Below are positions 1 through 64,000 of a stretch of 64,000 bases of DNA, piece by piece. This DNA comes from Tetrahymena thermophila SB210 (lineage: Eukaryota > Ciliophora > Oligohymenophorea > Hymenostomatida > Tetrahymenidae), in contig NW_002476507.1 of the NCBI RefSeq assembly GCF_000189635.1, forward strand, positions 868,001-932,000, written 5' to 3'. How positions within the stretch are numbered: the first letter of the stretch is position 1; each line of letters begins with the position of its first letter. The notes beneath the pieces were generated by a model. The model saw only the letters and a list, made by a program, of their open reading frames with translations, did no database searches and was not told the origin of the DNA. A program made the position numbers and the translations under genes.

Positions 1-2584
1 TATTCAAAATATTTTTCATAGAATATAGAAAATAAAATGTAACCTTAAAACGAAGGAACTTTGAGACTAATAATGCCATGGCTTAAGGTTAAAGCTTTGA
101 TTGTTCCAGGTTCATTGCTTACAACAATCACGTGAGCTGTTGGTCTATATTTAGATATTAATCTAGCCATCTCTCCATACATTGTAAAAACAACAATAAT
201 AGGTGCTTTTAAATCAAAACTCATTTATACTGCACTAGTTGCCATACTCTCAGTGTCAGAAATTTCTCTAATTTTATAAAATTGGATATCAAATTACTTA
301 AAAAAAAATTTCTTTTAATTAAATATTTTATTTTAAAATAAAGTTTAAATGAAGGAAAAATTTAATTTCTTTTATATTTATTATATTGACCTTATCAGTT
401 TTGTTCTTTTGAAAAAGTTGTCTGCATTATTGTAACACATTTCTGCTTCTCTAGCAATTTAAGAGGTAATTTCGACACATTCACAAGGATATTACCCTAC
501 AGATGTTTCTGTAGATAGCATGACAGCATCTGTGCCATCTAAAACTGCATTAGCTACATCACTAGCTTCAGCTCTAGTTGGTCTTGGATTTTTTACCATA
601 CTTTCCATCATCTATGTTGCAGTAATTACAGGTTTACCAACCTTTTTATATTAAAATGAGCAATTATATAACATTCAAAATATTATATTTACTTCAAGAC
701 AGCGATCTATCATCCATTTTTAGGCAACGAAAACTTTCTATGCTGGGATGACCATACCTAAGTCACCTCTTTTATTTAAAAAAATAAAAATTAATAAAGA
801 ATTTACTTTTCATGCCTAGATTAAAATAAAATCTTAAATTAAGCTTTATTTAAAATTAATAAATGATCATTTTTTCATGCTAAGATTTAAATAAAACCTT
901 AAAATAAATAAATAATTAAACAATTAACTAAATAATTAAACTGCTTAGTCGATTTAATTTATTACAAACAAAATAAATTAATAGTATTAATGATTATACA
1001 TACCTTGCTACCATAATACCATCAGAACTTTTTAAAATATCTTCAAAGTTCTCCATACCTTCTATATTTTCAATTTTTGCTATGATTTTAATATGCTCCC
1101 CTCTAGGAGATAAAAGATCTCTTACATATTCAATATCTTCCCCACTACGTACGAAAGATACAGCTATAAAATCTACACCTTTTTCTAATCCTTATGAAAT
1201 GATAAAATCTTCATCTATTAGTATTAATTAAAATTATTAATCATTTTTAAATTGTATTATGAAAATACCTTCTTCACTTATTGTTGGCAAATCTATTTTA
1301 ACACCTGGAAGTCTTACATTTTTTACTTCGTTTAAAATTCCCTCATTTTCAAACTAGACAACAATATCAGACTTTTATTTATTAAAAATAAATTAATTTT
1401 AATTTAATAATTAATATTTTGTTTAGCTTTTATGCTAATTAATGAATTCATTTTTTATGTAAAAGTGTAAGTAAATTAAGTTTATTAAAATAAAAAAGAG
1501 TAAAGTAATGTTTACCTCATTTACTTCAACAACATGAGAATATATTGTATTATCTGATAATAACACATGTTATCCAACTTAAACTAATTTTGAAAGAGCT
1601 ATAGAACAACCTATCCCTTACTCATCTCCTTCATATTCTGGCTGCTCATCCACTTTTTATATTAAAAATCTATTAAAAGCTGTTAATAAAATTGCAAGTT
1701 TGCAATTTAGTATTCAATATAAAGTTGGAAAAAATAAGTTGCTGTGACTTAATTTAAAAAAATATATTTTCAATTATTTTATTTTCTATTTTTTAGTAAT
1801 ATAATGCTAAGAAAGACCATTTGAAGCCATAAAAACTATTATAATAAATAGTTCATCTAATTTATCAGATTACTGTTATGATATTATATTCTATTAAAAG
1901 TAAGAAGATAATTTATAAAAGACTTGCTTACTTATTTTTAATTTTTATCCTTTCTTTATTTCAATAGGTTTTTTATCCTTTAGTAAAGAAGTTCTAATAT
2001 CTGGACCCTACATTAAATATTTTTGAATAAGAATAAATACCAAATATGTTCATTTTAAAATAATCATTTTTATTTTTATTTATTTATTGATAAATTATCA
2101 AAATGTTAAATATATTTCTACCCTTGTATCTAACATAATAGAACATTGAATGCTTTTTCTGAGTTTGAATGCTTATTTCAAATTGCTAATTACTGTTTCA
2201 TAAAACTATTTTAAATGAAAATATTATTTAAATAAAATAACAAACTTATTTTAAGGAAATATTTTTTTTTAAAACTATTCAATTAATCCTTGAGTTCACA
2301 TTTTATAATAAATTTATCAAATTTACTTGCTTTAATCCATGACAATAAGTAATTCTTGCAACATTCATTCCTGAATCAAGAAGCTTGCATATCATTTCTA
2401 CACTAGAGCTTTAAGGGCTATTTAGAAATAAATAATTGCATAATTTATTATATGTCGATCTATTTTTATTTTAATATATTTATAATAATTACCCTAATGT
2501 ACAAACTATTTTGGTTTTTCTTTTTGAGTAATCAGTTTCCTTTAAAACCTTATTTAAATTGAAATTTTATCCAAATGTGTTCAT
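1..2584 (-). CDS. Pyruvate kinase, 3' end beyond the window
   Basis: Cytosolic glycolytic enzyme that transfers phosphate from phosphoenolpyruvate to ADP. The start ATG is at 2584-2582; the first exon ends at 2493 and splices into the signature CTLGPQSSSVEM. Later exons give GPDIRTS (about 2005), DLPTISEE (about 1275), [19 protein letters not shown] with the catalytic Lys (about 1080), RGDLGMVIP (about 750), [14 protein letters not shown] and [20 protein letters not shown] (about 540-640), then the C-terminal domain [16 protein letters not shown] (about 150-200). Order and spacing match the whole family. At least seven short AT-rich introns interrupt it. No stop is seen before base 1, so the last part is missing. 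Oddities: the usual R-x-N-F-S-H loop reads RITYCH, and the residues before GPDIRTS differ from the usual D-T-K. Gln is often coded by TAA/TAG. Family assignment is certain; exact exon ends are by eye. Confidence 0.93.
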
Positions 2585-4077: not shown

Positions 4078-7000
4078 ATGTCATAGAAATATGATGGAAA
4101 GGAAGAATAAAATATAACTACAGCAAAGAAATATTGTATACGCTCTAAAAATGTTTGGATACAAGAGAAATCAGATTTTTTAGATGCATACATATTTGTT
4201 GATGGAGAAATTACAGCAGAAGTCTTATGCACTAATTAATAATAGAGGTAAATAGAGGAACTTTTAAAAACGTTTCCTCTTCACCAAGACTATGGAGATT
4301 TATATATTTTTCCTGGACTAATCGATTTAAATGTTTCCCTTCATATAGGAACTGATTGGGAAGAGATTGAGTAGACAACTGAACTCTATCTTAAAGGAGG
4401 CGTAACTACTATAGCTTGCTAGCCTTTACTGACAAACGAGATTTATTTGAAAGATGAGCTTGTATCTATAAGGAATAGAAAGCAAAGGATTTTAAATAAG
4501 TCAAATACTGATTACTGCTTTTTTGCTAATCTCTATCCTGAAAATATTTCTGAGTTAGAACATATATATTAAGAGCCTGGTGTAGCTGGCTTTAAGGTAT
4601 ATACTTATACTATACAAATTTAATTTCTTTTAGTTATACAGTTCTTCAATTTTTTTTTGAAAATGGATGGAGGGAAGATGAAGACAATAAAAAGCAAGAA
4701 CTTTAAAAATAGAATAAAAATCTAAAAATTTAAATAGGATTTTCATTAAAAATCATGGAACTTTTCATTAGATATTTTAGATATAAAACAATTTAAAGAA
4801 TATAAAATTCAATTTTTCAAACAATCAAGAGTTGATTTGGCTACAAATTTTAATATCTTATTATTCTAAATGGTTTTATAGCTGAATAAATCAATAGATT
4901 TAAATTTCCTTAAATGCAATCTATATCTTTCCAACATCATTTTATTCCAAATTAAAATGCCTATTTTCTACAAAAAAAGTACTAAAGTTGATTAGCTCTT
5001 GTGATATTCTAAATATTTGGAGTAATTATTGAATAAATATTAAAAACTTTCTAGTATAATCTGACTATTTCTTACTTACTGACATAAATTGTTTAATTAT
5101 TTATTGATTGATTGATTTCCAACTATTCAGAAAATAACTTATAAAAACGAAATAGATTTTAAGGCAAATTAAATCATGATTAAATGTTAATTAATGCTGG
5201 ACAAAATATTTCAATTATAATATTTTGGTATAAAGTGGTACTAAACAATTTATATCATAGAAAAATAGTAGTAAAATTAACGATATTCATACTCTATCTA
5301 AATTTGAATTTTCTTCTCTTCCAATTATTAGAATTTTTTCAAATTAATTAAAGCTCCCACAAAATAATCTAATAAGCATTCTTCATATCCAAGCGTTTTG
5401 AGTAAATATTTTGTCTAGAAGATTGTAACTAAAATTTAAATCTATGATATCTAAACTAATAGTGACTTTTAAAATTCTCCCAAAAATCTTTCAAATTTTA
5501 CCGCAATTATTTCAAAAAATAAGAAACATTTTCATATGTTTGGCTAAAATTCAAAATTATTTAAAAAAGTAATAAAATCCATAATCCAAAATTATAATAC
5601 GAATTAATTTTGACTAAGCAATTCATTTTTCCAAAATAAAAAAAATAAAAACATTCTCATTTACTTAAAATATTTTTTATAAAATAATTTTAATACATAA
5701 ATTTCTTTTGAATTATAACAAGATATACTTGACTTCACCTTTCTAAAATGGAGCAGGATGGGTAGAAACGAAGAGAGACATGGATTTTGTTTTAAATAAA
5801 TTAAATTAATTCAGATAAAAGTTAGAAACTCAAGATATATCTCCAACTTTAATTGAAAATTAGTGCTAGAAGTAATTTTAGTGTAATCATAAGAATTTGT
5901 TAGTTACCTTCCATTCAATAAAGAGTGGTGAAAAAGAACTAACAATAACATCACCTTTAAGATAGCGCAAAATAGAGGAGAGATGCGATAGAACAACTCA
6001 AATTAAGCGTACATAGGGAGATTCCATTCTTGGTGAAACCTAAAAAGGAAAAAAAAAATAAGAAATCAATTACGAAGATGATTAGTTCGACAGCTTAACT
6101 GTAATTAATTATATTTAACTCTTTTATTGTAAATAATAGAGTTGATAATAATTCCTTTACAACGCATTATAATAAAAATTAATTTTTAAAATTAGATGGG
6201 TCAAATATCAGAATGTATTAATGACAATATCTTAAATTTTTAAAATCAAGTATAAAACTCTGATGAAGAATTAAGTGCTTAGGATTTACATCCAGAAAAT
6301 AATAAAAGCTTATATGAAAACCCTTTTAAGGAAAATGAGAATAACTAAGCTAATTTAAATGGAGATTAGCCACATTACAGCTCACATTCAAATAGGGAAA
6401 AATTAATAAAAATGTATGGAAAGGCTTCTATTAATTCTACAGAAAATTTGTAAATTTAACTTTTATCTAGAGCAGAAAGAAAAACTTACAACAACCAAGG
6501 TAAATAAATAAATTGCTAGTTAGTTATCTTTTATTGTTTTTCTGCAAAAAAATAGTATTTAACAATTTTTTACTTTTGAGCTAATAAGAAAAAATTTCAG
6601 ATTTGTAATAAAAGAAAATTATTATTTTTCATTCCAAATTTATTCACCACCAATTTCTAATTTTAGAACAATTTTCACTACACCAATTAATTTAATAATA
6701 AGCAATTTCAGATGCTTTTTAGTGTAAGATAAATTATATTCAAAATCTGTAAATTTTTTAAATTTTGCTTTACACCTATTTGTAGCATGAATTATATTTA
6801 GTTTATTTTTATGAGTATGGTTATTAAAGTTAATTTTTCATCCAAGTTTTTCTAAAATTTAATAATGAACATAATTATTTTTTCTGAAAAGAATGCTTTT
6901 CATAATAAGTAACTTATCTGATTTTAGTGATGAGTTTTTCTAGTGCATTTCATTTAATATTTTAGTATAACTTATACTGATTTAAAATTTTAAGTTATAA

Positions 7001-9487
7001 CGCTTTATTGTTGTCTAATGCGTAGCGTTAATTATTCTCTGTTTTATTTTAGATGAAAGTGATGAAGATGATGAAGAATACCTCTCTTCTGATAGCAAAC
7101 TGAGTGAAGAATAAGAATAATCATCATCAGGAAAAGATGATAGCAGCTCATAAAATGGAAATAATAATCTAAAAATACATCAATTAGATGAGACATGCAG
7201 TCCTACTTAAGAAAACCAAGCAAAACTTGAAAAAAGTACTTCATTTTGCTCTCCTATTAGCTCACCTTCATCTTAAAGATATGATACGATGTCCCCCAAA
7301 AGTGAGTTATGTCAAAAAGAAAGTAGAAAGGAAAGCCATGAAAGTTCTGATGAAATCAAATTCTAAGATTAAATTCCTTTTCCAGCATAAAATTAAAATA
7401 CTTATTCTTATGATATAGAACCAACTAATAATATAGATTCCATCAAAAATACTTGCAAAGTAATTAAAATGTAAAAGGTATAGCAAGATGATTGCAACAT
7501 TAGTTATCATAAAGATGAAGATAAAGCTGGAAGTCTGCATCAAATAGACGAAAATGCAGAGTCTGCTAGGGATTCTAATTCAGAAAATGAACATGAAAAT
7601 AGCTTTAACTAAAATTAAACATACAAATAGGTACATAAAAAATCATATAACGATTATAGTGAAAGATCTGGTAGTGGATGTAGCAGCTACATATTAGCAT
7701 ATAAGACAAAAAGTCTAATTAACTCAAAGAGAAGTTCACATGATATTACCTATATAAACTAAAATTAAAATAGTGAAGGGCCCTAGATAAAATTAATAAG
7801 AGACATGAAAAGAGGTTCATGTGAAAAGGACTCTCATACTTTTATTAACGATAATACACACACATTAAAAAAATCGAATTTTAGAGCATATAACAATGAG
7901 GTAAAATAGCAAATTATATATTAAAAAAATAAATAAATAAATAAATAAATAAAATACTTAAAATCATATTCCTATATAAAGGTTCAGTCAATGGTAGAAA
8001 TAAATAAAAGTGAGAACAGCTCTCCTTCTCTAAATGCTAGATCTTCCAAACTATTTGAGAAAAGAAAGAGTAGGACTTTAACTGTTTAGATTGACTTAAA
8101 ATTAAACTAAGACAACAACAATTTGGGTAAATCTCAAAATAATAACGAAGATGAATCTGATTAAAACATGCATGAACATATAATTTGCTTGAAAAGTTCA
8201 GGACAGATAGGAGATGACCAAACATCTTGCTAAAGTTTTAGGGATAATAATAATCACGAATTTGGAGGTTTCTTGACTTAGTAAAATAATCGCTATAATA
8301 TTCCTCACTGCAATAGTTCTATTTTTTTAGCTAAAATACATTAAGAAAAAGAAGATTGGAATGAAAATTAAATATTCAATAATGGATTTAAAGAAGAATA
8401 TTCCACTCGAAAATAGAGTTCTGATTCAGGTTCAAATCACTCTATCGGCAATCATTTATTGAATTAAAGTGTTTCATCTTTAACAGGGACAAACTTTAAT
8501 TCACAAACTATCGTACTTAAGTAAAACAATGATAATTCCAAGCTATGTGAATGTTATAATCAAAATTGCAAATGTCTTCACAATAACCAAATATAAAAAA
8601 GTTCTAAGTTTAATTAAGATTACCTAACGTTTTTAGCTTTTCGTCCTCCTTATTGGGAATATTTTGGCATTCAACTGATTAGAGATTCTCTTGAAAAAAA
8701 TTTGATATCCAGCAAAGTTAAACTAAATGTAGTTTTTGCTAATATTGGAAATTCAAACTCTATGTATAGAATAACAGTTCTAAAATAAGACCTAGAAAAG
8801 AAGAATAAAAACATACATCTATTTTCTGAAACTACAGGAGCTTATCTCTTTTTTTCTTCTAATAATATCCACAACGGTTCAACTATATTTAAATGTGAGC
8901 CACCAATAGGTGGAAAAGAAAACAAAGAATTTCTTATCAACGCATCCAAACTTAATATGGTTGATACAGTTAGCAGCTACCATTTCCCAGTTGAATATAA
9001 ATTTAAATGTATAGAAGATGGAGATTTTCGAAAAGCATTTAGTGGTATATGTACTGCTGGATTTACTTTGTAAGCCACATGGACAGCCTTATATCAATCC
9101 TATAAAAATATTAGAAATAAATCTCTTAGCAAGAATAAAGATGAAGAAGGAGAACTTAAAAAATTAAAAGCTCTTTTAAATTATTTGGTAAATATGTTAA
9201 GTGCTAAACCAGCAAAAATTCTTAGCATCCATAATATGAAAGGATCTATTCAAAAAGGCAAGTATGCTGATTTTGTAATTTGGGATCCTTTCTCAGATTG
9301 TCAAAGAATAAAAATACCTCCTTCCTATCGCTTTAAGTCAGTTCATATCTTTGATAAAAGAAAGGTTTATGGGCATGTTTAAGCTACTATATTAAGAGGA
9401 AACATAGTTTATGACAACTAAAATTCATCTTCATAAATATTTTTAAAATCTCAAGGGAAATTAATAACTAAATGTGGTGTAAAATGA
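4078..9487 (+). CDS. Allantoinase-like protein, probably catalytically dead, with a huge insert
   Basis: Five exons read in frame: 4078-4596, 5723-6100, 6196-6499, 7053-7900, 7982-9487, giving 1184 residues. Exon 1 has the amidohydrolase start (FPGLIDLNVSLH) and ends at GFK; exon 2 continues IYLTSPFQNGAGW and NLLVTFHS. After about residue 290 come some 600 Asn/Ser/Gln/Glu-rich residues, then the barrel resumes at about 890 with YLTFLAFRPPYWEYFGIQLI, FKCEPPIGG, GDFRKAFSGI and KGSIQKGKYADFVIWDP, all typical of allantoinase. Normal allantoinase is about 450 residues. The metal ligands are gone: HxH is NVS, LVHAE is LLVTF, the HLS strand has no His, SDHSP is SSYHF; only the Lys of GFK remains. 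Family membership is clear, catalysis is unlikely; a scaffold or regulatory role is inference. The next ATG upstream in frame was not found, so 4078 is chosen. Confidence 0.85.
7924..7955 (+). repeat. (AAAT)n microsatellite in an intron
   Basis: About seven AAAT units inside the 7901-7981 intron of the allantoinase-like gene. Read through in frame it would add Gln-Ile-Asn-Lys repeats, so the intron call rests on the GT at 7901 and AG at 7980-7981, which keep the frame. Confidence 0.7.
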
Positions 9488-16421: not shown

Positions 16422-19400
16422 ATGTCCGCTTTTGATATTTAAGATGACACTCAAGAAAAAATAAATAATAAATACGAAAAGGTAAAACTTTTAGGTTCTG
16501 GAAATCAAGGTAAAGCCTATTTATGCAAGCATGCCTAAACAAACTAGTAGTTTGTTATTAAACAAATCTAATTAAGCTGCATGAGCGATTAAGAAATTCA
16601 AAAACAATACAAAGAAGTATCTATCTTGAAATCTTTGAGTCATCCAAACATCATAAAATATTAAGATTCCTTCTTATTTAAGAAGAATTATTTATGCATA
16701 GTCATGGATTACGCAGAAGGTAAATAATTCAACATTCAACTTTACAAAAATGCACACAATTGCTTTATTTAGAAGCAGAAACCATCATACAAACAATTAT
16801 AATATGCTTTTCATATTCACTGAAGAATAAAAATAAAAATTTTTGCTACAAATATGGATTTCATTTTTAGAAATTTTGATAATATAGTGTATTAGTAGTT
16901 TATAGTTTTAATTAAAGATTCAATAGCAAGTAAATGCATTAGTGGAGTTCATGGATATTATTGATGATTACTAATTAATTATCTTAGTAATCAATCGTAT
17001 ATTTATTATTGTTATCCAGTTTCTTAATTAATTTTTAAATCATAAAATTTAAAAATTGAAAGATTTTACAATCAGAGTATCTAATAAATCATTTATTTAT
17101 CAATAGCAACAATCACAAAAAAAAATTAGCATTTCAATGATCAATTTTTCATATAAATTTTATAATATTTAATACTTGAAAAATTATAAAGATGTATTTG
17201 AGATTTATCTTTCATTCCATACCTCTGAATCTAAATTACGGATTATTCTTTATAAAATTTAAATTTATTAACACTTCTTTATTTCAGAAACTCCCTATCG
17301 AAATCTTGCAAAAATATAATCCTCTCTTTTAGATATTTAAATATCTGAAATATAATAATTAATAAATTTAAATAACTAAATAAGAAGTAGATTATTTTAT
17401 AATTATGAATTAATGACTGACTGCTATAATAAATTAGTTTACATTTTATAAATTTATTTTAAATATTTAAAGGTGGTGATCTAGAATAGAGAATTATTTA
17501 AGCATAGAAAGCCAATACACTTTTCGATTGCAAAACTATACTAAAGTGGTTCACTTAGCTATGTAGTGCAGTCAGATTCATTCATAATTAAAAAATCATT
17601 CATAGAGATATTAAGAATAGTAATATTTTTCTTGATTCAAATGATAACATTCTTTTGGGAGATTTTGGGATCTCGAAGAAGCTTCAGAATCCTAAAGATA
17701 AGGCCTCTACTATTATTGGTAAGGATCAAATATTTGTTTATTTAATTAATTAAATAATTTAAATTTTCTAATGAATTAAAATTTTATTTTTAATAAATTT
17801 ATAAAGGAACACCATACTTTATGGCCCCTGAAATATGTAATCAGCAACCTTATACAAATAAAGTAGATATATGGGCTATAGGTATCGTTCTTTTTAGGCT
17901 AGTATATTTAAAATACCCTTTTGAGGGATTTGAAATATTTCATCTGATGCTTGCAATATCTAGAGGATAGCTTAAATTTCCTTAAACTCCTTCCTCACCT
18001 TTAAAAAACTTAATTTAAAAACTCCTGTAAAATGATCCTAATAAAAGGCCATCTATCGAACAAGTATTTGGTAAAAGAATATACTTTTATTTTAAAAATA
18101 ATTCATCGTATTGTTTTAATTAAAAAACGAAAAAGATTATTCTTAATATTAACTTTATAACTTTTTTATATTTAAAAAGAATTCGAAGAGATTAAATAGT
18201 ATCTTGACAAATCTAGATAAGAAAAACAGATTAATTAAAACTAAGTAATAGTTTCTTTAATTTCTTTTCAATTATTTACCTTAATTAATTAATTTATTAA
18301 TTATTTAAAATTTAAATATTTAACTTAATTTTTAGACCAGATTGAACTCGTGCAGATAAACTCGATTGACTAAAGACATAAGCACAGGAAATTTCGAGCT
18401 TTAATATAATCGAGCATAATCACCCTCCTTAAAAAATATTCAAAAAAGCGAATAAAAATTGTTTGAATTTGCTGTTTAAAACTAGTAGAATATCTAAAAA
18501 AATATTATACAGAGGCAGATGAGTAAGCATTAGGCGAGAGATATATCACCTGGAATATAAAAAAATCAGAATGTATTGATTTATTTAATAATTTTTAATT
18601 GTTTCGAATTTATTAGTCTCAACATTTATTTATTTAAAAAATATAGATAAGTAAATTGCCTTCTCTAAAATCTCCAAGTTCTTGTCCTTAAAATAATTCA
18701 AACTCTAAACAAAAGATTTAATATAATGTTGCTTCTTCCCCTAATATTATGGGAAAACAGAATTTTGTAAATTTAAAGTACAATTCTAATTTAGAAAATG
18801 AAAAAAATTTTTTAAATAATTTAAATAATAATTATTCGCCTAAAAAATTGAATAAATAATATTCTGACTGCAGTACTTCAGATAGCAGTAAAGAAACACC
18901 TAAAGTCTTATTTAATAATCACAAAGCTGATGAACTTTCACCAGTAATTTAAATATAAAAAGTTATGAGAAATAATTTATTTGCTAAGGGCTCTGAAGGA
19001 TAAGTAAGCTCAAGTTGTAATAACAACCCTTTTTAATAGTAAAATTTCTAGCCAAGACTAAAATTTAGTGCAAGAAAATACAACAATGCTATCCGTTTAA
19101 GTGAACAAGTTGTTACTAATACCCCACAATTAAAACCATAGATAATATAAACTCAAGACAACTCAACTCCATAGTATTTATTTGCTCCTTAAATTAATAT
19201 CCCTTAGTCATAGCAACAGTAATAACAATAATATACTCCAATAATTATAAACTACAAACAGCCTAAAAACGACATAAAGACAAGACCTTCTCTGAATCTT
19301 AAGTAATAGTTTTCAGATAATTCTGTTTCTGTGAAGGAAAATATTCACTAATAGAACTAGTATATTGAAGCAGTAAAAAAGTAAATGAATAGACCGAGTA

Positions 19401-34104: not shown

Positions 34105-36280
34105 TCATATAAAATTTATTTTTTTAAGGATGGGAAGTGATTTTCTTCTAGTAATTTGTTAGGTTTATTAATTTTTTTCCAATTTTTGAATTGAGATGAG
34201 TAGTAAATTTTTCAATATTTTTTACCATTTTATTTCATTAATTAAATGTGATTTCATATATGAAGAATCTAAAATTTCTTATGTTGATAATCTTAATTCT
34301 GGATCAGGATTCATCATTTATCTTATCATTTATTTCAGCTCTTTTGGACATTAATTCAATGAGTCTAAGTTAGGTAAATGCCCCTATCTTATTTGCAGCC
34401 ATTCATCACCATTGGTTGGAAGTTATTCTTAAGTTACTAGATGATACATCATTGCCCCTAAAGAAAATATATCTGCTTTTTTAAGATCAACAGCTTCATA
34501 ATAATTTAAAATTTCTTTTGCTAGGTATCTAGCATCTCCCTCTTCAATTTAGTTATATTTTTCGTTGTCCTTATTTGCAATTAAAGCAAGCCCTAAATCA
34601 GCTATTTTAAACTTATTTTACTTTTTGTTATATAAGATGTTTTCAGGTTTTAAATCAAGGTGAACTAAATTCTATTAATGCAAATAATGTAATCCTTTAA
34701 CTACATCTTAGAAAATTTTCTTAATCATTTAATAGAACTAATTATAGTTAGGAGGTTAGGGTAAAGGAAAGTTTGCTAAGTTGCTATCACAAAATTCCAT
34801 AGCTAAATGTAGCTATCTGTCTTCTATCCAAGCACTATGATAACAAACTTTTATAATAAAATAATTTGGTTAAAATTATAATTAAATTTGAATTTATAGA
34901 ATCTAAAACACAACAAAATTGAGTTATTTTTTGCATTAAAAATAATTTAAACAATTTACCTATATATTCTACCTCATCGCATGCACTTAAAGATGCAAGA
35001 GCTTAAGCTTCTTTTAAAATCTATTTTTGAGAATTTTCTCCTCTTATTTATTCTTTAGTCACTTTTACTGCATAAATATTTTTATCTATCCTATTTTGAC
35101 ATTTATAAACAGTACCAAAGAATCCACTGCCTAAAACTTATAGAACCTCATAATCTTATTCAAATCTGTCCATTTCTTCTTCAAAAAAAGGTTAAGAACT
35201 TGCTTTAGAATTATTCTAATTATTATTTTTTGAAGGTGTTTGATTGAGAATGTTGTTACTATTATTATTGTTACCATAATTACAGCTTCTACCTGAATTT
35301 ATACTAAAGCTAGATATACTATTATTATTTTATTCATTATTACTATCGCTATTAGATGTATTACTTCTATTTATTTAATGCTTTTAATTAGCTGAATTCA
35401 TTATTTGATTTGTGAAACAGTTGACATGAGGGCTCTAATGATCTATTTTGTGAGTGGAATTTAACTATTTAAACTCTTTAGGTGAAGGGAGAAGTATTTA
35501 ATTAGCATTTTTATTGTTATTAAGATGATTCACAGCATTTATAGATACTTTTTTATTGTCTCTTTAATGGATAGTCATGTTCATTTGCCTGTTTTCTCTA
35601 TCAAAAGGTGCCACTATCACTTAATTTTTATTTGTTAGTGTCTCGTTAGATGTAAAAGGATTAACTTTTCTTGCGCTCTTTTAAAGTTGGCTTATTTAAT
35701 TTTGCCTTTTTTATGCTGGAACTTCAGAAACTGCAAATATATGATTACGATTATTTTTTTTATTCTTTGAATGAGAATCATTTTCTTTGTTTTAATTCGA
35801 GTAATAATGATTATCATTCTCTCTTTCAGTACTACTCTCTTACGAATCAGAGGAGAATAAAGATTTTTTATAATTATGCTATTTTTTGGGAGTTGAATGA
35901 TCAAATTCATTTTTAGTGTTATATTTATTTATCTATTAAGTGAAAAGCCTTTGCTATGGAATTTTTTCATATGAAGGCAGATTTTTTTAAACATTTGGTG
36001 TTTATGTTAAAGTAATTCCATAATTAGGTTTAACAATGCTCTCAAAGTTAAATTAAGTTTTTTTAGTTTTAGAATTTTCATTAGTCCCATGTAAATGTGG
36101 TTTTGCTGTGTTATCAAAATGGCTTATGAAGTTATTTTTCTTAGTATTGCTACTGTTTATATACTATTCCTTTGAGTAAAGGTATTTATTCGCTTTTTCG
36201 GTGTCTCTTTTAGAAGGAGGAGAGGCGTATCCTTCTTCCATTTTTGTTTTATATGTACTCTTTTTAGGAGTCGATAGCAT
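34105..36280 (-). CDS. WEE1-like protein kinase
   Basis: Two exons (36280-34960 and 34847-34105; intron 34848-34959) give 687 residues. The first 365 residues are polar and low-complexity with several SP/TP sites (MLSTPKK, YASPPSK, LLPSPKE). The kinase domain begins MDRFEQDYEVLQVLGSGFFG, with YAVKVTKEQ (ATP lysine), SAWIEDRQLHLAMEFCDSNL, LVHLDLKPENIL (catalytic Asp), IADLGLA, EEGDARYLAKEIL, LKKADIFSLGAMMYHL and MMNPDPELRLSTQEIL. The AWIED...E-x-C, H-L-D-L-K-P, D-L-G and E-E-G-D-x-R-Y-L-A motifs together are the hallmark of WEE1/MYT1 kinases, which put inhibitory phosphates on cyclin-dependent kinases. No membrane segment follows the kinase domain, which argues for a WEE1 rather than a MYT1 type. 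Assignment to the family is firm; target is from family knowledge. Confidence 0.9.
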
Positions 36281-37778: not shown

Positions 37779-40265
37779 TCATGATAAAATATCAATAAGT
37801 TAAACAGGTTTAGTTTGTTTGATGACCTATTTGTGATTTTTTTTATCAGATAAAGACTTATTATTATTTTAAGTAGTCCTAGTCTATTCTTTCTTTCTTT
37901 TGAAAGAATCATTAAATTCTTCATCATCATCCTCAAATTCAAAATCATAACTTTCTTTGTGCTTTTTATGGCTGTTTTGAAAATCATTTTAAAATTTTTT
38001 AAACTTAAAATTTGGATTTTGTGAGTTTTTGTTTTAAAATTCTTATGCATTTCTTTTTTAATCGTTTTACTAATTATCGTATTGGTAAGATTTATAATAG
38101 TGAGTTTAATGTTTGTTACCTTAAAAATTACTTGACTATTGTTTATATTTATTGTATTTATGACTCTCATATTTATCTGCCCAGTTTTTAGAATGCTAAT
38201 CATTTAATTACTCTTACTGATTTTTTATTTGATTGCGCCATATTAGAGGGGACTCTTTTCTATTGTTATAAAAGCTACTATTTTCTTTAATCTCATCTTT
38301 GTTATACGAATTCGCTCTATTAGATTCTTAGTCCAAGCTTGAGGTTGTTACTGAGTTTGATGCTAGAGGAGAAGTAGAAAATTTTTTTTAAAACAAGTTA
38401 TTATTAGATTTGTTGAGCACACTATCTTATGTGGACTTCTAGCTCAGGCAAATTTATTCTTAAAGTTTTTCACTTTCTGTTGATGATTGAGAAAGTGAAT
38501 TAATTTCATAATCTTCATTTTCTATTTCAAAAATTTTTACTTTTATTTCTTTGATATTATTTTCATAATTATAATCTGTTTCTGAATTCTTACTATATTT
38601 TTTATCATTACTTGATAGATTTATTTAAGAAATTATGGTTGGTTATTGCTATTCGGTATTTTACTGGTTTTACTGGTGTCCTTCAGATATTTAAACTGAA
38701 ATAAGTTGCTCATTCACTTACTTAAGATGCTCACTACTAAATTAAAATAGACTGTGATACACTTTTTGTCTGTTTGGGCGATCATCTTCGTAAAGAGAAT
38801 CACTTTTATGAATAAATCCAAATTAACTTAATTTATTTCTCAACTCGTTTTTTCCCCAAAACTTCATATATTAACCACAGTCATCAAATCTTTCATGCTT
38901 GTATCTCAAATACTTATCCAGCTCAATATTTTCTTATGGAACATCATGCTCTCTTATATATAAATAACCACCATCTATAATAACTCTCTAAAGTTCTTTT
39001 AGATTCGTATCAAGATTTTCAATATGGTGTAAAACCATGAAACAAGTAATTAGATTTAAGCTTTTGTCTTATACAGGTTGTAGACTGTCTTTCTTGTTTG
39101 CTATATAAGTAAATTAAATATTACTAGGAGTATCTGCTGGACGAACAAATTGATCTTCAGAATAAATGTCACATCCTACGATGTATTTTGCCCCATAAAC
39201 TTTACCAATTTAAGCTGTTATTTCACAATTTCCGCATCCCATATCAAGATATCCATTTATATTAGCAATTTATGGACTCAGCACAGATGTAAGCATTTTT
39301 AGTCTATCCTCCTACCTTCTAACTTTTATATCTTCTTGATTTTCTTTTTAACGTGTAAAGCCAGGAGATTGCGTAAAATGTCTATTAAGAGATCCTTCTT
39401 CTTCGTCATTTCTACGGTGGTGAGCACTATAGAGACCACGCTTAGAAAATTGCTAGTAATAGTATTGTTGTACATCTGTTTTTTTGTTTAGTTTTTTTTA
39501 AGGTGTGTAAAAGAGATTAGCTCCTTTTTGCTGCTTAACCTGACTTGGCTAGTCTTACAATAATTTCTACTCTCTGTCTTACAAAAATATATTAAACTCT
39601 ACATTTCCAACAGGTTCATTATTGCTTTCAGATTTCTTCCTACTTTCAGTACTTATTCTTTCACTTACATCTGCTTCTAAACGAGTGTTCTCTTCATTAG
39701 CACTTAAGGATTCTATTTTATCTGTATTTAATGCACTAATTTATTAATTGTCTTATTAGCTACTCTCAACTTTAGAATATTCAGTTTCTACTAACTTTTG
39801 TATTTGACTCATTATTTCTAAGATCTTTTATTGCTCATCCTATTCTTCCAAGCATTTTTAAATATTTTCATCCTGTTATTAACAATTTTGTAATTGAGGG
39901 ATATCACATTACACGGGCTATGGATTTTTTCTTACATAAATAACTTTGTTTTTTTTTTCTTTTTTGCTCTTATTTTATGTTGCATCATGCTTCGAATTAG
40001 GTTCAGCATTAATTTATTGCTTAAATTGGTTTATTTAGCAATCCTATGAATTTTTAGTGTTCTAACTAATGGCAGAAGTCTTTTGTTTCAAATTTTATTA
40101 TTCACTGTTTTTGATTTTATCTTTTGGTAACTTTAGTTTTTTATGATGCTTATCTTCTTCATTTAATTATGATTTGTGAGAGCTTGTACAGTAAGTCCAT
40201 TCATCATTATACTCTATTTAAAATGGCTTATTGCATTAATTAGTGATATTACTTGTTTTAGACAT
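37779..40265 (-). CDS. SAM-dependent methyltransferase with long disordered flanks
   Basis: One exon of 828 residues, ATG at 40265-40263, TGA at 37781-37779. The class I methyltransferase domain spans about residues 305-510: motif I is YLDMGCGNCEITAQIG (near residue 340), then YIVGCDIYSED (acidic end of strand 2), NLITCFMVLHHIENLDTNLK (motif IV region), RVIIDGGYLYIREHD and a C-terminal part ending KVYHSLFQF. This pattern fits the Methyltransf_11 type. The IREHD sequence after the GGYLYI strand is a useful search handle. The N-terminal 300 residues (many Gln, Lys, Ser) and the C-terminal 320 residues (Asn/Gln/Ser/His/Lys-rich, ending in an acidic DDDEEF patch and basic tail) show no domain. 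Substrate cannot be told from sequence; RNA, protein or small molecule are all possible. Confidence 0.82.
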
Positions 40266-43200
40266 TTTTTATTCAAGGCTTATAAGTGATTTTCCTAAAC
40301 CAAATACTTTTTGAAGTATGATTTTGAGGTAAATATTAAATAAAAGCTAGTTGGTATAAATGCTATTACAGTGTTTTCTTACTTTTTAATTCTTTGATTT
40401 AGTAAAATCATACAAACCTTTTATATAATTTATTATAAACAGAAAAAAAATCAAATCACCTCTACTTAATAGAAAAAATAATAATAAAAAAATGAATAAA
40501 GAAATCTCTTCCATCTATTTAAATTCTTTATAACAAATCCAAATATGTTTCTATCGTTTTGCTGATCAAATAGTAAAAACAATTAATTGCCTAACTCTAC
40601 TTTTTACATATGTTGTTTTGATAGCTTAAGTCAATATTTTTTATTTTGATAATTAAATTTGCAATTAGTGATATTATATCACTTTAGACTGTAATTTGAA
40701 TTTATTTTAGGATATATCTTGTCATAAAAAAATTAAAATCTGATTTATTCATGTTTTAACTATTTTTTTATTAAGAATTAAAGTATCTCAGCTTAAAAAA
40801 ATAAACATTAACATGAGAAAAATTTTTATTTTTTATAAATAGATTATTGCAATCTTTACATAATTTATCTTTTTCATTTAAAAATTAATCCGAAATATTA
40901 AATTTTTTCTCGACTATATTATGAAATATTTATCTTATGCAAAGTATTTTATATTTATTATTTCTATCATAAAATTTATTACAACAGAGTGTTAAATCAA
41001 TAATTAAATTAAAATAAAATCTTAATTGTTAATTTTAAACTATTTATTTTTATTTAGCTTTTTGAAACTTGCATCAAAAAATCCAATATGAGTTTTACAT
41101 AATTATCTTAATATTATCCTAAATATAAACTCTTCATATATTTTTTTATAAAAACTCCCTATATGAATACTTTTAGCATGGTAAATCTCTCTAGAATTAT
41201 GAAATAATTTTGCCTGTAAAAAAAATATGTCAAAATTAAATATAAAACTGTTAAATTTTCAATATATTTTTTGAAATTTGCTCAAGGTTTTTTGTAAAAA
41301 ATGCACCTTATTGTTTTTTGAGTTAAGAATATAAAGTTATTTCTCAACAAATAATATTTGGCTAATATTTTAAAATTATTAAATTTGAGAGTATTTAAAA
41401 ATTATTTTATTATGGAACACAGAGAATTATTATTTTAGTATAAATGAGATTTAAAGTATTGCTTTGCAATTATTATATTAAAAATTTTATATAAGAAAAT
41501 TTAGTTCTAAATAAATTTAAATTGTATAATAAAATTGAATAAGTTAGTTAAAATAATTTAAGATATTAAGTTATCAAGCTTCAATAGCCAAATAAACATA
41601 ACTTGAAAGACAACACTCATTTATTTTTTTTTAAATATTAGAACCCAAAAATAATTTAAAAAAATTGAATTTATGACTCTTAATTAGCCTTTAATTAGGT
41701 AAATGATTTTCTAAATTTTATAATGTAGGTAGCTAAAGGAATAATGATAAATAAATATTCTTTAAAAATAGAAATTTAATTTTCTAATAATTTTAAAAAC
41801 ATTTAAAATTAAAATTCTATTGATTTATTATTATTTATCATGTTATAATTAATTAAGATATTAACTAAAATTTTGTTTTTTGTTAAAATTTTTTTTTTAA
41901 TTATTCTAAATATTTATAAATTTAATTCATAATAAATATATATTGTTTAATAATTCTATAATTAATTTTTAAATTATCATCTTTGATAATCTATTATCAT
42001 TTTAAATTAATTATTTTGAATCAAAATAATATCTAACTTAATTTAAGGAATCCAATTTAATTTTATTTATTACTTTTTATTTTTATTTTTTTTATAATTA
42101 ATTAAAATTAAAATTCTGCTTAATTTTTCTATTATAGAATAGTCAAATAAAAATAATAAACTTAAAATTCAATTAGTTATTGATTTAAATACATAGTTTT
42201 CATATCCTTAATTTAGACTATAATGTACTTTGACATAAAGATAAATTTTATAATTGATAAAATTAGTATTTTCTATTAACATCTAATAATATAATTTGAA
42301 AAAATATGAATATTTGAAAAATAATATTTTTTGAATCTAGATTTATAAAGGTACTTTTTTAATTTAAAAAAATAAATTTAAAATTAATAGATTATTATTT
42401 TCCATAATAAATTTAGCTTTGAATAAATTAATTAAAACTAATACAATGATTCTCACAACTTAAATAGTTAAAATTCTTCATTCATTTCAAAAATATATAC
42501 AAATGAACTGTTCACTATCTAAATACATATATATATGATGTTAATATTAAATTTATTTTATTTAGTTATTTAGAAATTATTAAATGATTTTAATAAAAAA
42601 TTGTAAATAAAATAAATTAATATCATTTAAAGGCATTTTGCTAATTAATTTATTTAAAATCACTATTAATAAGGAATATTTTTATATTAAATTTAATTTT
42701 AAAATTTTAATGGTTTTTATTATATTTTTTAATATTGGTTAAATAGAATTGAAAAATAATAAAAATGTATAATTAAAAAATTTAATTTATAATCCGCTAA
42801 GCATCGTAGAAAAAAAATTTATACAATTCTTTTTATTAGATTTCACTGATAAATTTGTTATTAAAACAAATTGATTCTTCTAATTATATTTGAATTAATT
42901 TAAACAAATAAATTATTTATTTGAAATAAAATAGATAATTATTACGTTTGGGTGTAAATTTTTATAGATCTAAATTTAGCAAAGTACTAATTTTAATTTG
43001 AATAATAAATTCTTTATTTTTAATTAACAAAAATTAGTAACATATTGAGATAAGTAATAACTTTGTAAGAAATTTTTTTATAATATTCATTTTGTCAAAA
43101 ATAACTAATAAAAATACATTTTTATTTTTTACTTTATTTTATCGATTAAGAAACAAGGAATCATAATATTTGTAAATTTTCATAGAATTATATGAATATA

Positions 43201-54635: not shown

Positions 54636-57600
54636 TCATTTTTTAATTTATTTAAAATCTAGTTCTTTTTTATATTTAAATTACATTTATTTTCTTTACT
54701 ATAATTGGCTTAATTCTTCAAAAATATCAATGTTTTAGTCTTCCTCATTTTAAATTATTGATTTATTTTTAACTTATTCTTCTTAATAAAATAAACTGTG
54801 ATTTCTGCTTATTTACTTTGGATAATTTTCTTGTTTGTTAGAATCTATATTATTTTTTTGGTTTATTCTAAATTAAGAATAATTCTCTACAGAAGGACTG
54901 TCTTGTAAATTCACAGATTTTATTGATTAAATCTTATTTTAAAAACCTTATTTTTTGTTAAAATATTAATTGTTTTGCAAATGATTAGCTGAAAAGTCGT
55001 TGCTCTAGTTTTATAGATAGCTTACTATAATTTAAAATGATAAATAAATTTTAAGTTAAATAATATTTATTTACAATAGTTTTAAGTGGTAATCAACTGA
55101 GTTCTTCTCTTATTATCTATGAAATTTATTTTGTGTATTGCTTTATTACTTATCAACATTTTAAGGTTTAATTTTATTTTTTTCCAATATAAGAACACTT
55201 TTATGTTAATAGTGTAGTATTTCAAATATAAGTTAAAAAGCTTTTTAGGTAATATTTTCATAAAAATACTTTTGAATATTCTTCCAATAAAAGTGTTAGG
55301 ATTGCTAATTTTGAAAAAAATAACATAAAAAAATAATACCAGCAAATAAGAGTAGCTTAAGAAATAAATAATTGGTATTATAAAAAACTCATTTAAAGAT
55401 ATGTTGATTGCAGATAAGATGCAATTTAGAATGACTACTTGATAACAAAGTATATCTATACTCTAAAGATGATTATTTCTAAAAGGAGTTATTGCAAAGC
55501 TAGCTTTTGTGTATAAATAGAGTATTAAAATTATGATTTGGTAGTTTAAAAAAGAGTTTTAATCTTTCAATAAGCTATTAATTAAAACTATCAAAATTCT
55601 AATGTATATTCTTATGAAATCCCAATAGTAATATTTTTATTTAAAATCTGTATAATAGTATCCATAACAATACCTAGTTATGCAATAATTGAGTTTCTTT
55701 GAATTTCTCTTTAAATTAAATAAAATAACTAAAGGTAATAGACTCCAAAAAAATAAGCAAGGTATTGATATCGCATAAGTAATTTTTATATATGATGGAT
55801 CATTGCAATTTATTTATAAGTCAGAAGTCACATATTTATTTTATCCTATCTATGTGCAAGTTAGCTACTTTGAAAAGAAATTAATTTAATTAGGTTAAAA
55901 AAGTATGTAAATAAAGTTTGCTAATGTAAATAAATGGAAATTTTTTATTCTGAATAGCTTTAACTTTTCTAGTATTTTTATTAAGATAGCCATGATGGCT
56001 AGGAAAAGTAATGGTAAGATAGCGTATATGATCTACATTATATGTGTGTACCCGTAAAGATCTATTAATTTTTTGCTTATTATACAACTTAAACTAATAA
56101 CAATTCTGTTAGCAGGGGAGTTTAAAAAAGCTGGGAAGTACATTAAAAACTCTGTAAGAACTGAAAAAGGATGAGTAATTATCAATGAGCTCAATTGAAT
56201 ATAATTAATGAAAATTTTTAGATAAAAGATAGATTAATCTTTGATTTGGCTTTTATGAATTGGTATTATTTGCATAAGTCTTAGGTATTAGCAAATCTGA
56301 AAATGCACAAAATTATTTGTAAACATTATAACGCTGATCAAAATATACAAGCACAGCAATAAAAATGTTAGTACAATAAAAATAATCTAGTATTTTTCAC
56401 TACTACATTTTTCACACTTACCAGTATCAATAAAAGAATTAGTATATCGATTGTCAATCCAATATTTTCCAGTTACATCACAAACACTGCATATAGGGCC
56501 TATGTATCCTTCAGTACAGCCATTTAAACTTTAAGGATCATTTGGTTTACAAGAATCGGTATTCTAATTGCATTATATAATCTCAGAAGTTTTATTATTT
56601 GCCCTCCAGTATCCATCTTTTATTTAAATTTCATTTGATTAACAGCTATTTGCCGTGTCAGGGCATTTTATACATTGAATTTAAGCAGTGTTATTAACAA
56701 TTTTCTCCTATAGAGTTACTTAATTCCAAAGTTAATCACTTGTTGGATCTTCTAATGAATAGTATCCTAGTTAACATTACTCACAATTATATGAATTAGA
56801 ATCCGCTTATTTTAGTACTTCGCCCACTTTACAAGCTCTGAAATTTAGCAGTAATAAAATCGGCTTAATATCTGGGTTGTCTTATAATGAGATAGAGTAT
56901 GATATCTACAAATATTTTTATTATGTTGGTATAGAAGAAATAGTGACTTGGCTGAATGAAAATAATGACTATCCTTCAACAAATTGTTCATAAGTTACTA
57001 TATTTTATCCATTTATATTTATATTGGTTTAGTTATTATCTTCTATTTTAAAGTAAATGTTTTTTATTTCCTCAATTATTGACGACGGATACATGTTTTG
57101 TGTTAAATTTTTAATCGAAAATTTAAATACACTCCCCTCAATATCAAAAATTTGTAAATTCATCATCAAATAAGAACCACTTTTAAAATTACTAAATTAT
57201 GCAATAGATTCCCACTATTTTTTTTCTGTCTCATTCATTTAATTTTATTCTATAAATCTAAAATCAGGAGGTTTATAGTTAATATCTGTGTCAAATTAGC
57301 TTTACTAAGAGTTATTTTGTATTTTTATCTCTGTCAAATATGTTGCGAAATTGTTCCCGTATAGACTAGCACAATTTTAATGAAATTATAATCTATATTT
57401 TAACCAAAACTAATCTTCGTTATTATAAAATTAATTCTTTAATCTCATTCCTCCTCCAATCAGTGCTTTGTTACTTGTAATTTCTACTTTTTTGTCAAAA
57501 TAAATATCTCCATAAAATTCCTCAATGTAAATGGCACCTCCGCTTGCTAGTGCTTAATTTTTTACAAAAGTAGTGTTTTAAATGTTTATTAGACTTTAGC

Positions 57601-60600
57601 AGCTAATCAGCTGTAAAGAACCTCCGTCTTCTGAAATATTATTGATAAAATTACTGTTTGAGATATTTATATCCCTAGAAAATAAAATTTAAATATTGCC
57701 TTAATTATTTTCATAATTTGAATCCTGAAAAATAATATCAGTATTTTGAAGTTGAATTAAAGGTTTTAAATTTTATTAAGTTTGATAATTTCCTGAAATA
57801 TTTAGCTATTAGATAATGATGCTGTCTGATAGTAAAATGTAAAGTGCTTAGCTATTATCGTATTATTTAATTGTTTGTACCAATTATAAATTACTATTAT
57901 TTATAAACTAAAAATTTTAAATACTCGTATTTTGTAAACCAACTAAGTTAAAAACATAAGAATAACTTTACGTTTCACTTTCATTATTAAGCTTGTAATA
58001 ACTGTTTGATATTTATACATCTGAAAAAAATGTACTTTGAGCTATTTTTATATTAACTAGCTATGCTAATATTGTATTAAACACTTTAAATCCTATTATT
58101 TTCAAGTTAGAAACATTTTCAATTGATAAGAGATATTAAAAATGTTAAGCTTTTCCAGAGTTAGAAATAAATAAATTATAAATAAACACTTCTGAGCAAT
58201 TCCTAAAAAGAAACAATGGAATAGCATCTTAGCTATTTTTATTTATCCTTTCATTTTATGAGAAATTTAAATAGTTAATTACAACTCTTTATAGGTTTAC
58301 AAATTAAAATTATACCTACCCTAAATTTTATTTAGAAATAAATATATTTTAAAGATTTACAATTTGTGTTGCGCTGTTAAAAGTGATATTTAATATCGGT
58401 TAACTGAATTCAAATTGAAAATCTCTTATATTGACTTCAAGTTTTGTGTATTACTAGAACGATTAGGAATCAATAAATAACTTATTTAAATCTTATTTTC
58501 CTAATTCACAGGTTTTTTACGATGAGATAACCAATGAATTATCTTGTGTGCCTTGATAACTAATTGTGTTTAAATTAGAATCCTAAAGGATTACCATGTA
58601 TTAATTTCTTTATTTAACTATATTACTCACAGAAGCCGATTAAAATGTAGGATCAAAAGAAATAAAAGGTTTTACATTCTATATTTTTTAAAGCATATCT
58701 AAATAGGATGTTACATTCATGCTTACTCCGCACTATTTATTTTAATCTTGAGATACCTCATAACTTAAATTGTATTAAAATTCTTATACTTTATCCAAAG
58801 ATAATAATATCACTTGCAGAATTTTATTTGTAGAAGAATATTAATCTTAAATAATTTAGTAGTTCATCAAAAGAGGATCTGCCATTTGTTACTAATCTAT
58901 ATACTATAAGGAATAATCACTATTTAGAGATATTAATTCATATTTAGATTCATAGGTAATCAAGAAATAAGTGTCTTCTAATACAATTAAATGTTTAATA
59001 AAATTGTAAATATTAGCTCTCCTTATAGTTTGTAAATATGCTAAAGAACTCCTATCTCTTATTATTATGGTAGAGCTAGAATAAAAAATTATCATATTTG
59101 CTGTAATCAAAAGCTAGCTGTGCTACTTCTTAGATAAAATTAAGTAATCCATCTGTAAGATATCTTATTTATAGTTATAAACTCTGACAATCTACTCAGT
59201 AGCAAAATTTAAGAAAAACCTTTAATATGTATCATCTACTCCAAAAATATCAACATTAACATCCTATTAAAATTAAAATGTCTAAATTTAAGAGAAATCT
59301 AATATCATCTTAATATCTTTGCTTGACTTTGATAATTAATAAACACCATATTAAGTCAGATAGCTAACCCATATGCTAGACTAAGTTTCTACGATTTGAA
59401 CTATAGGCGAAAATATATTTTTGGATTATTAAAATTTAGCTTGAAAATTAATTGTCTCGATGAGAATTGCTGTTGCATCATATATAATAAAATCACCATT
59501 ACTTATAGCTAGATATAAAATATTTTGTGATGATGAATATAAATCAAATGTTATTCTATCATTCAAATTTTTTAGTTTGAACTTAAATATAACTTTTTAA
59601 TTTTCAAAATCAAAATGCCAAATCTAGTTATCAATAGTTAGCAATAAATTTTCATTATAAAATTTTACAAATGTATTATTGTCCAAGTATTGCTAGGTAT
59701 AATTTAGATTCCAGCCAGATTGATTGAAAATAGATTAATAAGATATTTTTTTAAAATAAGCAATACTAGTTGTTAGACCAACCAAAAGGTAATTCTTTTT
59801 AGAGGAGTAATATATTTATGTTATATTTTCTTTGAAATGGTAAAAATATTTAAGTTAATTATTTACATATTTGTAAAGAATTCCTTATTCGCCAGCAATT
59901 AAAATTGCACCATTTAAAAGCAAACTCTAATTTTGTCCTTGTAGTTGGGTATATATATTACTGTTCCGTGTTTTTATTCTTATCAATCTATTACCAAGAT
60001 CTCCATAGCTTACTTAGTACACTGTGTATTATGTGTAAATAAAGAGATTATTAGTTCTAAAATCTAAACTAAAACCTTTCCCTTGAGCTTTTGATTAAGG
60101 AGTTAATTCTATTATTTTTAACATATTTAAAAGCTGAACCTACTATTGATAGTATACACACTAAAAATTACCTGTAAGGTCTAAAGATAATAAGAAACTC
60201 TATTCTTTATCAAATGAAATTTAAACAACTTAAGACTTTTGATTCAATAGGTAAGAGTTAGTATATATAGAGTATAAAGCTAACGATTTCAGATCATAGG
60301 AAAAAACTTACCCGTATTAAACATTATCAGTTGAGATTACTAAATGATAAAATTCTTCTAGGAAATACATCTGTTATATGACTGCTGATCCCTAGCTTTA
60401 TATAGATCCTCTAATGTTTAAGGTGTTTCTTTCAATGATAGTAATCTCTGTAAATTATTAAATTTAATTAAATTGATAAAGTTATGGTTTGTGTAAATTT
60501 GAATAATCAAATGAGAATTAAATTTAAAAAAAGATTAATAAAAATTTTACATGTTTGAGTTCTACAGGCTAAAATATCTTCAAAAAAAGTAAGTTCATTT

Positions 60601-63600: not shown

Positions 63601-63770
63601 TATTAGCAATTTTAGTATATACAAACATTGTTAAAACTATCTAACAAGTAGCTATCTTCACATTAAACACATATGCCTTATTAATCACATTATTTACAAC
63701 CTATTGAGCATAATTAAGCTTATTATACTGATATTTTAATTAGCCAAATCGCAATAAAAATTCTTTTCAT
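54636..63770 (-). CDS. Giant surface protein: Cys-rich, beta-propeller-like, beta-helix, multi-pass membrane domain
   Basis: ATG at 63770-63768, TGA at 54638-54636. It starts with a hydrophobic signal sequence (MKRIFIAIWLIKISVQQ) and a Cys-rich block (CSIGCKQCDQQGICVQCE). From about 63.4 to 58.5 kb the frame carries beta-rich repeats, some WD/propeller-like (MISTCTVNGLITTWDIS). At about 57.1-58.4 kb a parallel beta-helix follows, with NISNSNFINNISEDGGSL and TTFVKNQALASGGAIYIEE. A second Cys block at 56.4-56.85 kb has CEQCQLGYYSLED, CIKCPDTANSC, GYWRANN and GCTEGYIGPICSVC. About eight or nine membrane helices occupy 55.1-56.4 kb (IIFIVLTFLLLCLYILI is the first), then a polar Gln/Asn-rich cytosolic tail. 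The last intron is 55025-55074 and keeps the frame; another lies near 60.3-60.5 kb. Members of this architecture are common in ciliates. A single gene is assumed from the domain order; a split into two genes near 60 kb is not excluded. Confidence 0.75.
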
Positions 63771-64000
63771 TTCAAATTGATGAATAAATTCTACTTTTGG
63801 TTTACTTCTTTATATTTTTTATAAGCTTAATAATCTTTTTTTATTAATATTGCTTCTATTTATTAACTTTATATTTAAGTTAATTTTTTTAATCATAACT
63901 TTAAAGCGAATTAAATTTACTTATTCAAATAAAAAAAATAATATTTAAATGAAAATTGCAAACAAATAATTATAAATATAAGAAATAAATTAAAAAAAAT

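Follow-up and report, generated by a model that had tools for sequence, protein, structure and literature searches.

An allantoinase-lineage protein lacking most of its metal ligands, with two paralogs in the same ciliate genome, and its putative reuse as a scaffold

Introduction

We analyzed a 64-kb stretch of a ciliate genome (C65:868001-932000), hereafter the window, and in it a gene that runs on the plus strand from an ATG at 4078 to a TGA at 9487 (window numbering). Its product is of the lineage of allantoinase, an enzyme that degrades the purine waste product allantoin, but lacks most of the residues with which that enzyme binds its two metals. Two divergent paralogs in the same genome carry the same losses. 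In the reading that we consider probable, the protein belongs to a conserved set of three old paralogs of this lineage that are no longer catalytic, and its barrel, interrupted by a long disordered loop, was reused as a protein scaffold. That a cyclic-amidohydrolase barrel can become a structural protein is well known from the CRMPs. The initial annotation of the gene, the coordinates of which proved exact, had likened it to CRMPs and had proposed that the scaffold was kept while the chemistry was removed.

Results

With its low-complexity insert omitted, the window protein had the allantoinase model TIGR03178 as its top NCBIfam match (E 9e-40), with a score of 136.8 bits that lay far below the curated equivalog cut-off of 357.85 bits. 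Lower scores were obtained with the models for hydantoin-5-propionate amidohydrolase (90.2), D-hydantoinase (78.5) and dihydroorotase (71.2), and the only Pfam match was to the amidohydrolase C-terminal block. Both paralogs also ranked TIGR03178 first, at 124.2 and 92.8 bits, and three bacterial relatives tested against the same model reached 516-542 bits. When solved structures were ranked, the allantoinases 3hm7, 3e74 and 8hfd came on top, and among the best 60 of 80 matches the CRMP entries scored 4.7e-6 or weaker. When the three ciliate proteins, with the insert removed, were compared by hhalign with 67 bacterial relatives, the match had Prob 100 and E 7.6e-57. The allantoinase blocks follow one another in the window protein in the expected order, as had been read from the sequence at the outset. 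Going by these model and structure scores, with no tree behind them, descent is nearer allantoinase than dihydropyrimidinase or CRMPs. Descent from the latter two is disfavoured, as the allantoinase model and structures outscored D-hydantoinase and CRMP entries. The comparison with CRMPs hence holds as an analogy, given the few metal residues left, and not as a statement of ancestry.

The metal site was examined against a bacterial reference set drawn from the best 80 of 174 confirmed loci in a scan of genome contigs. A frame matching the query was obtained for 78 of the 80, of which 74 were at least 380 amino acids long; the 67 of 380-560 amino acids entered the final table, and 13 of the 80 were dropped. 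In these 67 relatives the six ligand columns were nearly invariant (H 66, H 66, K 67, H 67, H 67, D 67). In the window protein, the two His of the HxH block are replaced by Asn85 and Ser87 (N85-V86-S87, 4330..4338, plus strand), the block reading NVS, NVS and NVT across the three paralogs, that is N/N/N and S/S/T at the ligand positions. The His of beta5 is replaced by Asn937 (8741..8743, plus strand; N/N/N), and the Asp of beta8 by Tyr1016 (Y/N/F), in the pair Tyr1016-His1017 (8978..8983, plus strand) whose His is kept in all three paralogs. We therefore regard these alignments as firm evidence that at least four of the six ligands, namely both His of HxH, the beta5 His and the Asp, are gone. 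Their codons start at 4330 (N85), 4336 (S87), 8741 (N937) and 8978 (Y1016), well inside exons 1 and 5, so that splicing does not restore them. Alternative splicing that would bring the His and Asp ligands back, a prospect raised with the initial annotation, was rejected for this reason. As the four losses are common to the two paralogs, they did not arise by chance.

The two remaining ligands are a more delicate matter. Lys173 (4594..4596, plus strand) occupies the position of the Lys that is normally carboxylated in allantoinase; it is present in the window copy and is Arg in the paralog on contig C179 (K/R/K). At beta4, within the strand LLVTFHSI, stands His237 (5912..5914, plus strand), which is invariant in the three paralogs and over which the alignments split. 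Both hhalign and a profile merge, each with the following insert cut out, placed His237 on the ligand His (67/67). MAFFT put E/E/G in that column in one alignment and E/H/Q in another, and hmmsearch gave Glu in the window copy, Phe in C179 and no placement for the paralog on contig C184. A gapless BLOSUM score preferred His in all three, solely through the His match itself; with the His column removed, Thr was better in the window copy and Ile in C184. His237 may accordingly be a retained beta4 ligand, on alignments that disagree. The initial annotation had counted LLVTF among the losses and had taken the Lys as the only ligand left: the losses at HxH, the later His and the Asp stand, whereas the one at LLVTF depends on the adjoining His237, and the Lys is kept in the window copy, possibly together with this His, and not throughout the family.

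Beyond the ligands, 67 columns are conserved in at least 95% of the bacterial relatives, of which 29 are kept in all three paralogs, 24 are lost in all three and 14 are mixed. The bacterial CPPIR block has lost its Arg in the window protein, and the PGR block its P and G.

The two paralogs, at C179 and C184, were found in a genome of 101 Mb in 445 contigs and share 37% (C179) and 31% (C184) of their aligned core residues with the window copy; identity among the three is 31-37% overall. One piece of the C184 paralog was added after the first alignment and is present in the final ligand table. All three share the four firm losses and a new SPxR motif. Their frames bear signs of selection. In the core of the window protein, 588 codons held no in-frame TGA, for 12.65 expected under a first-order Markov model (the minimum in 300 simulations was 4), and the other two frames of the same core held 6 and 21; over the full 1185 codons the sole in-frame TGA is the final stop. 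The C179 and C184 frames were open as well, though they had been selected as open frames. Nei-Gojobori estimates for the three paralog pairs gave dN (nonsynonymous) values of 0.67, 0.75 and 0.68 and dS (synonymous) values of 1.93, 1.67 and 1.76, and hence rough dN/dS ratios of 0.35, 0.45 and 0.39. Stop counts and paralog dN/dS look like the marks of purifying selection and argue against decay. On the shared losses, the open frames and a dN well below dS, the proposal that scaffold was kept and chemistry removed is supported. So far as a new ciliate family is concerned, three members in one genome were found, the searches being confined to this genome.

The gene model, predicted from genomic DNA with transcripts not seen, has five exons and four introns, all GT-AG, and reads without interruption for 1184 amino acids under ciliate code 6. 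Its exons have a GC content of 0.26-0.31, against 0.10-0.20 for its introns. Exon 1 (4078..4596, amino acids 1-173) encodes the N-terminal strands and beta1 with NVS, and ends on the codon of Lys173. It is followed by intron 1 (4597-5722), which starts with GT and measures 1126 bp. Exon 2 (5723..6100, amino acids 174-299) contains the beta4 strand and, after it, the family-specific motif LTITSPLRQRKIEER (amino acids 246-260, 5939..5983), in which L, S-P, R and R are invariant in the three paralogs. Exon 3 (6196..6499, amino acids 300-400) and exon 4 (7053..7900, amino acids 401-683) lie in the low-complexity insert, which is rich in Ser, Asn, Gln and Glu in exon 4 and, from its composition there, predicted to be disordered. 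Exon 5 (7982..9487, amino acids 684-1184 and the TGA) carries the end of the insert, beta5 to beta8 and the C-terminal KGSIQKGKYADFVIWDP block. All these features are on the plus strand. The insert as a whole, about 600 amino acids long (amino acids 291-886; 6074..8590, a span that counts introns), lies in the loop after beta4. The C179 and C184 paralogs each have large low-complexity inserts too, by eye partly at different loops.

We also looked in the same genome for an active allantoinase and for other enzymes of purine breakdown, searching exon by exon and keeping the best candidates. Under this scheme, TIGR03178 found the three paralogs and a dihydropyrimidinase on contig C115 only, none of them above cut-off. 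The uricase and HIU hydrolase models had no match in the genome, with positive controls in 2 of 14 and 4 of 14 cases, respectively; the allantoicase model had none either, a silence that is uninformative as all 14 controls were silent as well. Given such a search, in an assembly that is perhaps incomplete, the absence of active allantoinase, uricase and HIU hydrolase appears likely. If urate is not broken down, an allantoinase would have no evident substrate, in keeping with a relaxation of catalytic constraint and subsequent reuse. Amidohydrolase matches numbered 8, in 6 genes. Three of these loci were weighed as a hidden active allantoinase and rejected: C115 is the dihydropyrimidinase, C398 is a guanine deaminase above the NCBIfam cut-off, and C428 resembles, by eye, a second guanine deaminase copy. 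The C115 enzyme looks intact, with its ligand motifs HSH, SFKFF, HAE, VVHL and GTDN present by eye. Its C-terminal half shares one open frame with a CN_hydrolase domain (G000:C115:239000-246000, minus strand, reverse-complement 4237-6336), and the latter is beta-ureidopropionase-like by eye, which suggests a fusion of two successive enzymes of pyrimidine breakdown.

The window itself has 16-28% GC in 2-kb steps and reads under the ciliate code. Upstream of the pseudo-allantoinase gene lies a pyruvate kinase barrel fragment (766-1713, minus strand). Two protein kinase domains (16639-18204, plus strand, and 34108-35058, minus strand), a methyltransferase domain inside a long low-complexity protein (37782-40562, minus strand) and two adjoining, very long open frames on the minus strand (54914-60628, with no Pfam match, and 60507-63998) were also seen. 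A tRNA scan returned 0 genes, and a scan of viral contigs matched 26 stretches, with 0 relatives. Exact matches to GGGGTT repeats ran into the thousands in the genome and included, among the matches listed, the start of contig C4 and a run about 466 kb along; from these repeats the genome is taken as a Tetrahymena-type macronuclear one.

Discussion

The data above lead us to favour a catalytically dead protein of the allantoinase lineage that serves as a scaffold. Because at least four of the six ligands are gone, the usual binuclear metal site could not form. What is maintained would be a folded platform for protein binding, made up of the barrel and the beta block at the C-terminus and probably oligomeric as in related proteins, since residues of the general fold are retained, most metal residues are not, and inserts are accommodated between the barrel blocks. 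Regulation or docking would most likely fall to the long Ser/Asn-rich loop that follows beta4 (the paralogs have additional inserts), as it does to the phosphorylated tail in CRMPs.

Several observations weigh against this interpretation. The insert contains just 5 SP/TP sites in 596 amino acids, which lends weak support to phosphorylation of the CRMP kind. The placement of the family is weaker for C184, in which a second allantoinase model scored 60.7 bits, below D-hydantoinase at 64.5. The proportion of synonymous differences (pS) was near saturation (0.67-0.69), which makes the dN/dS ratios rough. Furthermore, at five of the columns conserved in bacteria the three paralogs have all switched to an identical residue, from His to Asn at two of them and from Phe to Tyr, Gly to Phe and Ser to Phe at the others, and this could mean a pocket that was rebuilt around a ligand and not an empty one. 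Such a conserved small-molecule site, formed by N85, Y175, F180, N937 and H1017-F1018 together with K/R173 and His237, would make the protein a sensor or an unusual metal-free enzyme. The five replacements were kept despite an identity of only 31-37%, as was the His that follows the lost Asp; yet of the 24 conserved positions that no paralog retains, just these 5 agree, while 19 either differ from one paralog to the next or are gapped, and three sequences are few. We hold this rebuilt pocket to be unlikely, though it is the alternative that we take most seriously.

Slightly less probable still, a regulatory subunit of the C115 dihydropyrimidinase might be at work, in mixed tetramers as among CRMPs. 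The genome does keep one dihydropyrimidinase of intact appearance, and CRMPs are described as forming heterotetramers in passages of PMC4051505; the three paralogs, however, are allantoinase-like and not dihydropyrimidinase-like, and none of the tests made links them to C115. That Lys173 is kept in the window copy and His237 is invariant might also point to a residual hydrolase holding a single metal through these and other residues. With four ligands gone, a His237 that is perhaps not a ligand, an Arg in place of the Lys in one paralog and the additional losses in the CPPIR and PGR blocks, we find this very improbable. As to a decaying pseudogene or an artefact of the gene model, it would account for the missing ligands, the long low-complexity insert, the length of intron 1 and a model for which no transcript was seen. 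Decay is nevertheless rejected on the stop counts, the divergent paralogs that share the losses and their dN/dS, and an artefact fits poorly with the contrast in GC between exons and introns and with lost sites that lie inside exons; between them, these leave the pseudogene or artefact hardly any credit.

The catalytically dead scaffold is our preferred reading, and a bolder version of it can be formulated, which we put forward as speculative and improbable as a whole. Three pseudo-allantoinases, perhaps specific to ciliates, would have had their dead site rebuilt as an Asn-Asn-Tyr-Phe-His-Phe pocket controlled via the disordered barrel loop, and would act as a sensor or as a cytoskeletal scaffold that arose independently of CRMPs, in a genome where the searches brought to light neither an active allantoinase nor a uricase.

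Searches of open-access literature on allantoinase, amidohydrolase, dihydropyrimidinase and pseudoenzymes in Tetrahymena or ciliates turned up no report of such a protein, most subscription literature being outside the scope of this search. Judged from its sequence matches, it would be a pseudoenzyme whose superfamily is known but in whose branch no earlier case was found. With allantoinase AllB (TIGR03178; 3hm7, 3e74, 8hfd) it has in common the order of blocks, the signatures RP..E, K..P and KG....G..ADF..DP and the C-terminal strands, and it differs from AllB by the lack of at least four of six ligands, a score below the cut-off, the insert of about 600 amino acids and the SPxR motif. The C115 dihydropyrimidinase is of the same amidohydrolase superfamily with the same order of blocks, but has its ligand motifs, by eye, and a CN_hydrolase domain in frame.

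CRMP/DPYSL proteins, which are pseudo-dihydropyrimidinases and bind tubulin, offer a parallel. Of the six metal residues CRMP-4 has retained only two, and CRMPs are tetramers with a phosphorylated tail, as stated in passages of PMC4051505. An enzyme barrel sequence whose metal site is lost is common to both, in related barrel families, with one or two ligands left here, several paralogs on each side and a long extra segment. The two also differ. The parent of CRMPs is dihydropyrimidinase and that of the window protein allantoinase; CRMP-4 lost the Lys (Leu165), whereas the window copy keeps it; and the tail of CRMPs is C-terminal and phosphorylated, whereas the window protein ends soon after its last block (amino acid 1184) and has its low-complexity part internally, within the barrel. 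If our interpretation is correct, the allantoinase branch would provide, in a ciliate, another and independent instance of such a change, in which about as many ligands survive, and this would suggest that the barrel is prone to reuse after the loss of its metal site, in a system that is also tractable by knockout.

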